A DNA stretch of 64,000 nt from NCBI GenBank assembly GCA_017560095.1, contig JAFYOU010000056.1, positions 44,663 to 108,662 of the forward strand, in the 5' to 3' direction. This DNA comes from Candidatus Gastranaerophilales bacterium. GTDB lineage: Bacteria > Cyanobacteriota > Vampirovibrionia > Gastranaerophilales > Gastranaerophilaceae. The translations under genes were made by a program, and so were the position numbers. The notes under the pieces are model-generated. The model searched no databases and had not been told where the DNA came from. It saw nothing but the letters and a program-made list of their open reading frames with translations. Positions 63,616 to 63,898 of this stretch are shown in pieces (the stretch's first letter is position 1; each line of letters starts with the position of its first letter).

Positions 63616-63824
63616 GAAAATTAAATATTTTGTTTGTAAGTAATTTCGGGACGTAGCAAGGACTCCTCGGTAGCTGGAGGTGCGCAAGGCCCGAGAGTAT
63701 AATTGAAAATTAAATATTTTGTTTGTAAGTAATTTCGGGACGTAGCAAGGACTCCTCGGTAGCTGGAGGTGCGCAAGGCCCGAGAGTATAATTGAAAATT
63801 AAATATTTTGCTTGTAAGTAATTT
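63616..63824 (+). repeat. 89-bp tandem repeats copying the tRNA leader
   Basis: Bases 63616-63704 and 63705-63793 are identical. The next 31 bases (63794-63824) repeat the first part of the unit with a single T-to-C change and lead into tRNA-Pro. Each full unit has an AT-rich half ending in TTTCGGGACGTAGC (the last 11 bases equal the start of the tRNA), then a GC-rich half. In that unit TTTCGGG can pair with CCCGAGA (7 bp) and CTCC with GGAG inside it. Bases 63825-63835 of the tRNA continue the repeat before the sequences diverge. Confidence 0.85.
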
Positions 63825-63898
63825 CGGGACGTAGCGCAGCTTGGTAGCGCACTACCTTGGGGTGGTAGGGGTCGCAGGTTCAAATCCTGTCGTTCCGA
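63825..63898 (+). tRNA. tRNA-Pro (anticodon GGG)
   Basis: A standard cloverleaf can be drawn: acceptor CGGGACG pairs with CGTTCCG (one G-T), the D-arm is GCGC...GCGC, and the anticodon stem CTACC/GGTAG encloses TTGGGGT with GGG as the anticodon. The T-arm GCAGG/CCTGT holds TTCAAAT, and A is the discriminator. No CCA is encoded; TTTTTT follows and probably ends transcription. Two leader repeats precede it. It should read CCC/CCU codons. The tRNA nucleotidyltransferase at 39-40 kb could add the CCA. Confidence 0.96.

Follow-up and report, generated by a model that had tools for sequence, protein, structure and literature searches.

The tRNA-Pro(GGG) gene at the end of the window, the whole 64,000-nucleotide stretch of Candidatus Gastranaerophilales DNA that was analysed, is preceded by a tandem array of short units. 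Comparison with related genomes gives good support for the assignment of these units to a family of structured RNA elements located immediately upstream of tRNA genes within a single Gastranaerophilales family, as one to about five tandem copies. The units follow a common plan: the tRNA's own, often boxA-like, leader, a copy of the first ∼11-20 nucleotides (nt) of the tRNA, a hairpin core and, in some units, a terminal segment antisense to the D-arm. It is tentatively proposed that the unit is a cis-acting leader RNA able to trap its own tRNA in a non-productive fold, in the manner of an attenuator and perhaps gated by boxA; the switch itself is what we infer.

Structure and distribution of the units upstream of tRNA-Pro

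The array lies on the forward strand. Two 89-nt units, at positions 63615-63703 and 63704-63792, are 100% identical and are followed by a third copy of 43 nt (63793-63835) that is one base off (63811, C for T). Common to both units are a 31-nt leader and the first 12 nt of tRNA-Pro(GGG). Given that the tRNA starts at 63824 according to ARAGORN (63824-63899) and at 63825 according to Rfam, the shared tRNA part is 12 or 11 nt. The sequence thus confirms the preliminary description of two perfect copies and a partial third with a common leader and tRNA-Pro start, and its layout of structured unit, structured unit and tRNA holds. Leader copies span 63615-63645, 63704-63734 and 63793-63823, the last being joined to the real tRNA. 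Structured unit 1 occupies 63646-63697, within which 63646-63657 is the 5' copy of tRNA-Pro; structured unit 2 (63735-63786), equal to unit 1 in sequence, is closest to the tRNA. In unit 1, helix P1 (63646-63652 with 63688-63694) contains one A-G mismatch, and P2 and P3 are formed by 63656-63658 with 63681-63683 and 63663-63666 with 63676-63679, respectively.

ARAGORN places a single tRNA in the window, the tRNA-Pro(GGG) behind the array. With RF00005 and ARAGORN, the units gave no tRNA score, only 63824-63899 scoring, and a pseudo-tRNA reading was rejected on this ground. When known RNA families were sought in the window at gathering score and in 20 loci at E up to 0.5, only tRNA reached its gathering score. 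A self-splicing or intron-like reading was dropped, the downstream tRNA being already complete. No terminator-like site was found in the window array when one was looked for. The tRNA-Pro gene encodes no CCA and has a T-run directly 3'; in the window (63824-63910) and at loci L008 and L010, a T-run lies within a few bases of the tRNA gene and CCA is not encoded, so the tRNA itself may serve as a terminator hairpin. At 63579-63608 a sigma-70-like hexamer pair, TTGAAT-18-TATTAT, is a weak promoter candidate for array and tRNA; the hexamers reported earlier are present, but their count does not exceed chance (one found, 1.9 expected in shuffles) and the pair is not significant by itself. The open reading frame 5' of the array (62604-63539, 311 aa) has a CxxxCxxC motif and appears radical-SAM-like by eye.

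Folding of a lone 89-nt unit, one of the proposed checks, gave no advantage over dinucleotide shuffles (z = −0.39; −1.00 for the 61-nt core), and the case for structure therefore rests on relatives. P1 joins the tRNA-like 5' strand to the 3' strand, and P2 consists of GCA/UGC. For P3, both CUCC/GGAG and CCCC/GGGG are found, frequently in extended form and enclosing a loop of ∼9 to 45 nt. In an alignment of 47 distinct tRNA-Pro units that was fitted to the model and so favors the structure, 92.7% of cells were paired, as against 28-59% in slid-partner controls. Double-change cells numbered 34 compared with 10.8 in shuffles, and the covariation score was 0.141 compared with 0.088; neither the pairs showing a double change (3) nor the pair types (9) were more numerous than in shuffles. 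Compensatory changes occur in P1 and P3. The structure is thus conserved with compensatory changes in this model-fitted alignment, as a cis-acting RNA switch would show. The suggestion of a conserved foldable RNA was borne out by these co-varying stems, a check set beforehand, and the two pairings it had named, TCGGG../..CCCGA and CTCC/GGAG, are both present in the RNAalifold consensus of nine related units. GC-rich interspersed repeats, often GCGAAGC, were also seen in the window's genus inside or beside units (L038, L070, L037 and L056) and in some loops (L142).

In 30 of the 33 readable tRNA-Pro loci (two further loci, L248 and L251, were misread by the script and lie outside the 33), the tRNA and the unit closest to it agree in all of their first 11 letters; the letters differ in L062, L064 and L072. 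The sixth letter of the copy is C beside tRNA-Pro(GGG) and T beside the TGG and CGG forms, and rarer forms of tRNA-Pro are mirrored in their units (CGGAATGTAGC in L089, L249 and L250; CGGGATGTGGC in L241). In the window's genome (G000, 58 contigs), the other tRNA-Pro detected, with anticodon TGG, is preceded by a fourth copy that lacks leader identity.

When 59 genomes, including that of the window, were searched at the DNA level, six had unit matches. A covariance model built from nine units (R1) matched 18 of 29 genomes of the genus at E ≤ 0.1, the unit being absent from the other 11 at this threshold, and 15 of 191 genomes of the family at E ≤ 0.05. A second model built from 62 matches (R2) was applied at E ≤ 0.01 to an order sample, in which 47 of 286 genomes and 10 of 50 genera had matches; stricter filters were used in this search, so 47 is a lower bound. 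All of the matches listed fall in the window's own family of Candidatus Gastranaerophilales, and the identity of the tRNA that follows was examined at 11 new loci. In genome_contigs, a first sequence pattern had no match, and a core pattern drawn from the relatives found 12 contigs, all from Candidatus Gastranaerophilales metagenome-assembled genomes and several of them the same contigs as in genomes already searched. A genus-specific pattern had no exact match in viral_contigs. Phage or viral origin was rejected on the 20 matches listed of 637 phage records, all of which fall on the tRNA part (query 197-286).

ARAGORN analysis of the fetched loci revealed tRNA-Pro (GGG, TGG or CGG) 3' of each tRNA-Pro-type unit or array, or else a contig end, the exceptions being contigs that stop inside or just past the array. 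Among the loci examined, no unit was found away from tRNA genes or contig ends. Copy number ranges from one to at least five (in G191, five matches, one of them cut by the contig end).

Units at other tRNA genes and predicted pairing with the downstream tRNA

Related units stand 5' of tRNA-Phe, Lys, Asn, Val, Gly, Asp and others, each copying the 5' end of its own tRNA, and an element confined to tRNA-Pro is thereby ruled out. In G000, the tRNA-Lys(CTT) and tRNA-Phe units consist of a copy of the tRNA's own first 14 nt, an insert, a D-arm antisense with one mismatch and the leader again. In G083, which belongs to another genus, units were found at Thr, Lys, Val, Met, Gly, Pro, Asp, Arg and Ala tRNAs, with up to three in tandem. 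Upstream contexts were examined, after removal of duplicate rows, for 30 of 35 tRNAs in G000, 8 of 32 in G012, 31 of 38 in G008, 31 of 40 in G083, 27 of 43 in G034 and 23 of 42 in G041. Here, an own-tRNA match was defined as at least 11 nt identical to the tRNA's first 50 nt within 250 nt upstream. Such matches were found for 4/30, 2/8, 4/31 and 10/31 tRNAs in the first four genomes, in which sequences of other tRNAs of the same genome match in 0.1-1.9% of pairs, and for 0/27 and 0/23 in G034 and G041. For Thr and Ala-TGC of G083, the longest own-tRNA match is not to the 5' end.

The copy is not uniform. It is mutated in the tRNA-Phe units of G005, G018 and G003 and in the tRNA-Pro units of L062, L064 and L072. 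In place of the D-arm antisense, the Val, Arg and Gly units of G083 and the Gly unit of G146 have a hairpin with sense and antisense of their anticodon stem. Inspection by eye gave three further observations. Pro, Ala, Thr, Lys and Met units of G083, G146 and G191, genomes outside the window's genus (L091, L092, L090, L104, L120 and L121), share a hairpin whose apex resembles GAYUNARURUC. In GCUC-type units (L010, L142, L161, L162 and L276), the antisense is preceded by a common internal-loop motif, GA-hairpin-GRAA, which may be a site for a protein or a ligand. At L008 and L159, 5' of tRNA-Lys(TTT), a small hairpin precedes the boxA-like motif, with the compensatory change CAGTC/GACTG versus CAATC/GATTG in two species.

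Several units contain 13-17 nt that are exactly antisense to the D-arm of their own tRNA. Antisense was seen for Lys-TTT, Phe, Gly, Asn, Val, Lys-CTT, Asp, Ile, Pro, Met and Arg; it is perfect over 16-17 nt for Lys-TTT and Gly in G012 and Val in G007, and comprises 15 pairs, G-U included, for Asn. Exact own antisense of at least 11 nt occurs for 1/30 tRNAs in G000, 3/8 in G012, 0/31 in G008 and 5/31 in G083, with control pairs at 0.2-3.7%. The own tRNA is the strongest partner among the amino acids in 10 of 14 antisense-bearing units, which were picked because antisense had been seen; the four exceptions, two of them near ties, pair more strongly with a tRNA of similar D-arm. Among 19 copy-bearing tRNAs tested without such selection, 5 had the own tRNA as top-ranked duplex partner (0.83 expected; binomial p = 0.001) and 8 had it within the top 5%. 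For the other 131 tRNAs it ranked first in 10 (5.4 expected), some of which have antisense without a 5' copy.

A third covariance model (R3), built mainly from tRNA-Phe units, matched 21 of 29 genomes of the genus at E ≤ 0.01; of 24 R3 loci checked, 17 run into a tRNA (Phe 9, Asn 4, Lys CTT 3, Val 1) and 7 lie at a contig end. Of 27 tRNA-Phe loci of the genus, 24 could be read (L222, L224 and L225 had no exact anchor), and in these a unit was judged by eye to be present in 19 and absent from 5. Two different designs, type I and type II, were likewise assigned by eye, and in G010 both stand in tandem. In type II, no invariant block exceeds the antisense in length (12 columns); in type I, the antisense is one among several conserved blocks. 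With G010 entered as type II and the type I units that have lost the antisense (G013 and G015, 2 of the 19) left out, 124 of 135 antisense cells in type II are Watson-Crick pairs, 2 are G-U and 9 are unpaired; the corresponding counts for the 128 cells of type I are 116, 3 and 9. End positions aside, five changes keep the pair as G-U and one breaks it. Thus, the tRNA-Phe antisense is strongly conserved and present in two unit designs.

Joint folds of unit and tRNA were predicted. In 15 of 18 joint minimum-energy folds, the first nine bases of the unit pair with the 3' end of the tRNA, and in 15 of 18 the unit or leader engages at least five bases of tRNA positions 8-26; the predicted joint folds usually exclude the cloverleaf. 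In the window, the 3' strand of unit 2, GGTGCGCAAGGCCCGA (63768-63783), is complementary to the tRNA-Pro D-stem GCGCAC (63847-63852) and also, with a mismatch, to the 5' acceptor strand (63824-63830). The predicted joint fold of this unit with tRNA-Pro has a gain of −12.0 kcal/mol, reached by none of 100 shuffles.

The gain of joint over separate folds amounts to as much as 18 kcal/mol. Measured against 100 shuffles of the unit middle, it falls into three groups: extreme, with no more than 2 shuffles reaching it, in 7 of 19 units (both tRNA-Pro units of G000 among them); intermediate (6-18 shuffles) in 4; and ordinary (27-99 shuffles) in 8, namely the G000 Phe, the G008 Arg and the G083 Val, Arg, Lys, Gly, Thr and Ala units. 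Since the shuffled units retain the 5' copy and their gain still averages 1.4-8.4 kcal/mol, this copy alone accounts for a share of every gain. No other tRNA of the genome does as well in 12 of 19 units, a weaker control since those tRNAs do not match the 5' copy. Two exclusive folds are thus predicted for most units, within the range of shuffles in 8 of 19, and because the 5' copy is mutated in some units, acceptor exchange would not be general.

The boxA-like leader and a possible brake on tRNA maturation

The motif TTGAnAATTnAATA stands shortly 5' of the tRNA or unit. In the window, it appears as GTGAAAATTAAATA in leader copy 1 (from 63614) and as TTGAAAATTAAATA in copy 2 (63703-63716) and directly 5' of tRNA-Pro (63792-63805; 14/14 match). 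Very similar motifs, CCTTGAAAACTGAATAAC and CTTTGAAAATTGAATAAC, lie 99-112 nt 5' of 16S rRNA in 4/4 complete loci of order relatives, two of which belong to one genus; in the window's genus, no 16S rRNA was found in the 27 genomes searched. The consensus had been drawn from tRNA leaders before the motif was sighted at 16S. A boxA-like motif (12/14 or better) precedes 18 of 23 unit-bearing tRNAs and 18 of 77 others (p = 3e-6). By sequence, then, the leader shares a boxA-like element with the rRNA leaders of order relatives, as a boxA antitermination element would. The reading as boxA follows from the position before 16S and from a likeness to the boxA of other bacteria.

A mechanism in which the array acts as a brake can be outlined as follows. 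The array would be transcribed together with the tRNA and act in cis, like an attenuator, on tRNA maturation. In state A, the antisense would be held in the unit's own helices, the tRNA would fold and RNase P would cut at the tRNA. In state B, the nascent D-arm would be captured by the antisense while the unit's 5' copy pairs with the 3' acceptor strand of the tRNA, giving a stable dead-end fold. The loop of the antisense hairpin, closed in state B, would contain the boxA-like motif. Binding of Nus factors to this motif could therefore favor state A and couple the output of tRNA to the synthesis of rRNA; this choice of state by boxA factors is the least certain step. Action in cis on the nascent tRNA is suggested by the common order of sense copy, antisense, boxA-like leader and tRNA, together with the tailoring to each tRNA. 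Such a brake cannot be complete, given that the tRNA-Phe gene behind the unit is the only match in G000. The facts that speak most strongly against a brake are the patchy distribution, a Lys-TTT site that is empty in G000 and filled in G012, and units without a pairing signal.

Of the meanings offered in the preliminary description, a processing or dosage device comes closest to the proposed brake; decoys, tRNA-derived small RNAs and insertion at a tRNA target are kept among the alternatives weighed here. That interpretation is partly supported, and it missed the family of units at many tRNAs, the own-tRNA antisense in several of them and the boxA-like leader.

The main rival of a brake is a selfish or mutational origin with partial retention, which we regard as rather unlikely. 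The units would then be a mobile or mutational feature without use, arising by tandem duplication of the leader and tRNA 5' end, with inverted pieces added by template switching or by a small hairpin element that spreads through recombination at the shared D-arm. Template switching yields direct repeats plus inverted repeats of one target, as are found here, and patchy presence, variable copy number, empty and filled alleles and the GC-rich repeats in loops and flanks fit the same picture. Variation of the repeat between related species, which had been named beforehand as a sign against the preliminary reading, is also seen in the relatives. Such an origin accounts poorly for the compensatory stem changes, for a conserved antisense whose changes keep G-U pairs and for two designs with one antisense target at tRNA-Phe; furthermore, copies away from the target class of sites, expected of a mobile element, were not found among the examined loci, all of which are at tRNA genes or contig ends.

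It is improbable that the units are an aid to folding or processing, in which the leader would pair transiently with the 5' half of the tRNA and pass it to the cloverleaf or to RNases. Transient pairing of this kind with 16S rRNA has been attributed to rRNA leaders, and the boxA-like leader is similar to that of the rRNA operon. The pairing of the 5' copy with the tRNA 3' end also resembles the leader-trailer helix treated in PMC10250234. For strong units, however, the paired state is predicted to be far stabler than the separate folds (up to −18 kcal/mol) and would therefore trap the tRNA rather than guide it, and 77 of the 100 tRNAs examined in four genomes have no unit.

A small RNA or decoy acting in trans, freed by RNase P and binding tRNAs or a tRNA enzyme, is very unlikely. 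In the window and several relatives, the junction of leader and 5' copy is the same as that at the tRNA, so RNase P might cut there, and the antisense also suits other tRNAs of similar D-loop; against this, copy and antisense are tailored to the neighboring tRNA, beside which the unit stays, and this points to action in cis. An assembly artefact can be dismissed: the array lies ∼100 nt from the window end, which is the end of contig C54 of G000, and many arrays end contigs, but the same kind of tandem array is present in other assemblies, which makes misassembly unlikely, and single and tandem units of differing sequence inside long contigs of several independent assemblies refute it.

A wider extension of the proposed brake, genome-wide and tRNA-specific self-control, is speculative and on balance doubtful. 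Evolvable leader cassettes at many tRNA genes of one bacterial family, tailored to acceptor strand and D-arm, would compete with the cloverleaf, boxA factors would make tRNA supply follow rRNA synthesis, and cassette number would tune each tRNA. More generally, tRNA-gene leaders that each copy and oppose their own tRNA would represent a novel mode of controlling tRNA supply and an example of regulatory evolution that is rapid and specific to individual tRNAs; even if selfish, the element would be unusual in that it occurs only in leaders of tRNA genes that are essential. Nothing resembling these elements was described in the titles and abstract openings of a literature that covers few subscription journals, which does not prove that they are unpublished.

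Relation to known systems

Leader RNAs that act in cis are familiar from mRNAs and rRNA. T-boxes sense the charging of mature tRNA and regulate amino-acid genes. The proposed brake resembles the T-box riboswitch (PMC2494555) in that a leader RNA contacts a specific tRNA and has exclusive folds. Here, by contrast, the leader stands in front of the tRNA gene itself, and its predicted pairing runs along the D-arm. The T-box Rfam model had no match in the window or the 20 loci, and control of an amino-acid mRNA is not seen, a tRNA gene or contig end following the unit at the loci examined.

Transcription attenuators have a sense-antisense-sense order with two exclusive pairings. The order of sense copy, antisense and target is similar here; by contrast, the window array has no terminator-like site and the target is the tRNA fold. 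In the rRNA operon, a helix forms between the leader and the 3' end of the stable RNA, and tethering through boxA has been proposed to help such distant pairing, according to PMC10250234. A boxA-like motif and leader pairing with the 3' end of a stable RNA are shared with the present units, which differ in their tRNA target, tandem arrangement, D-arm antisense and own copy of the tRNA 5' end. In the mouse n-Tr20 C50U mutant, an alternative pre-tRNA structure resists RNase P and blocks 5' processing, as reported in PMC8915964; there the cause is a point mutation, whereas here a dedicated upstream element would be responsible.
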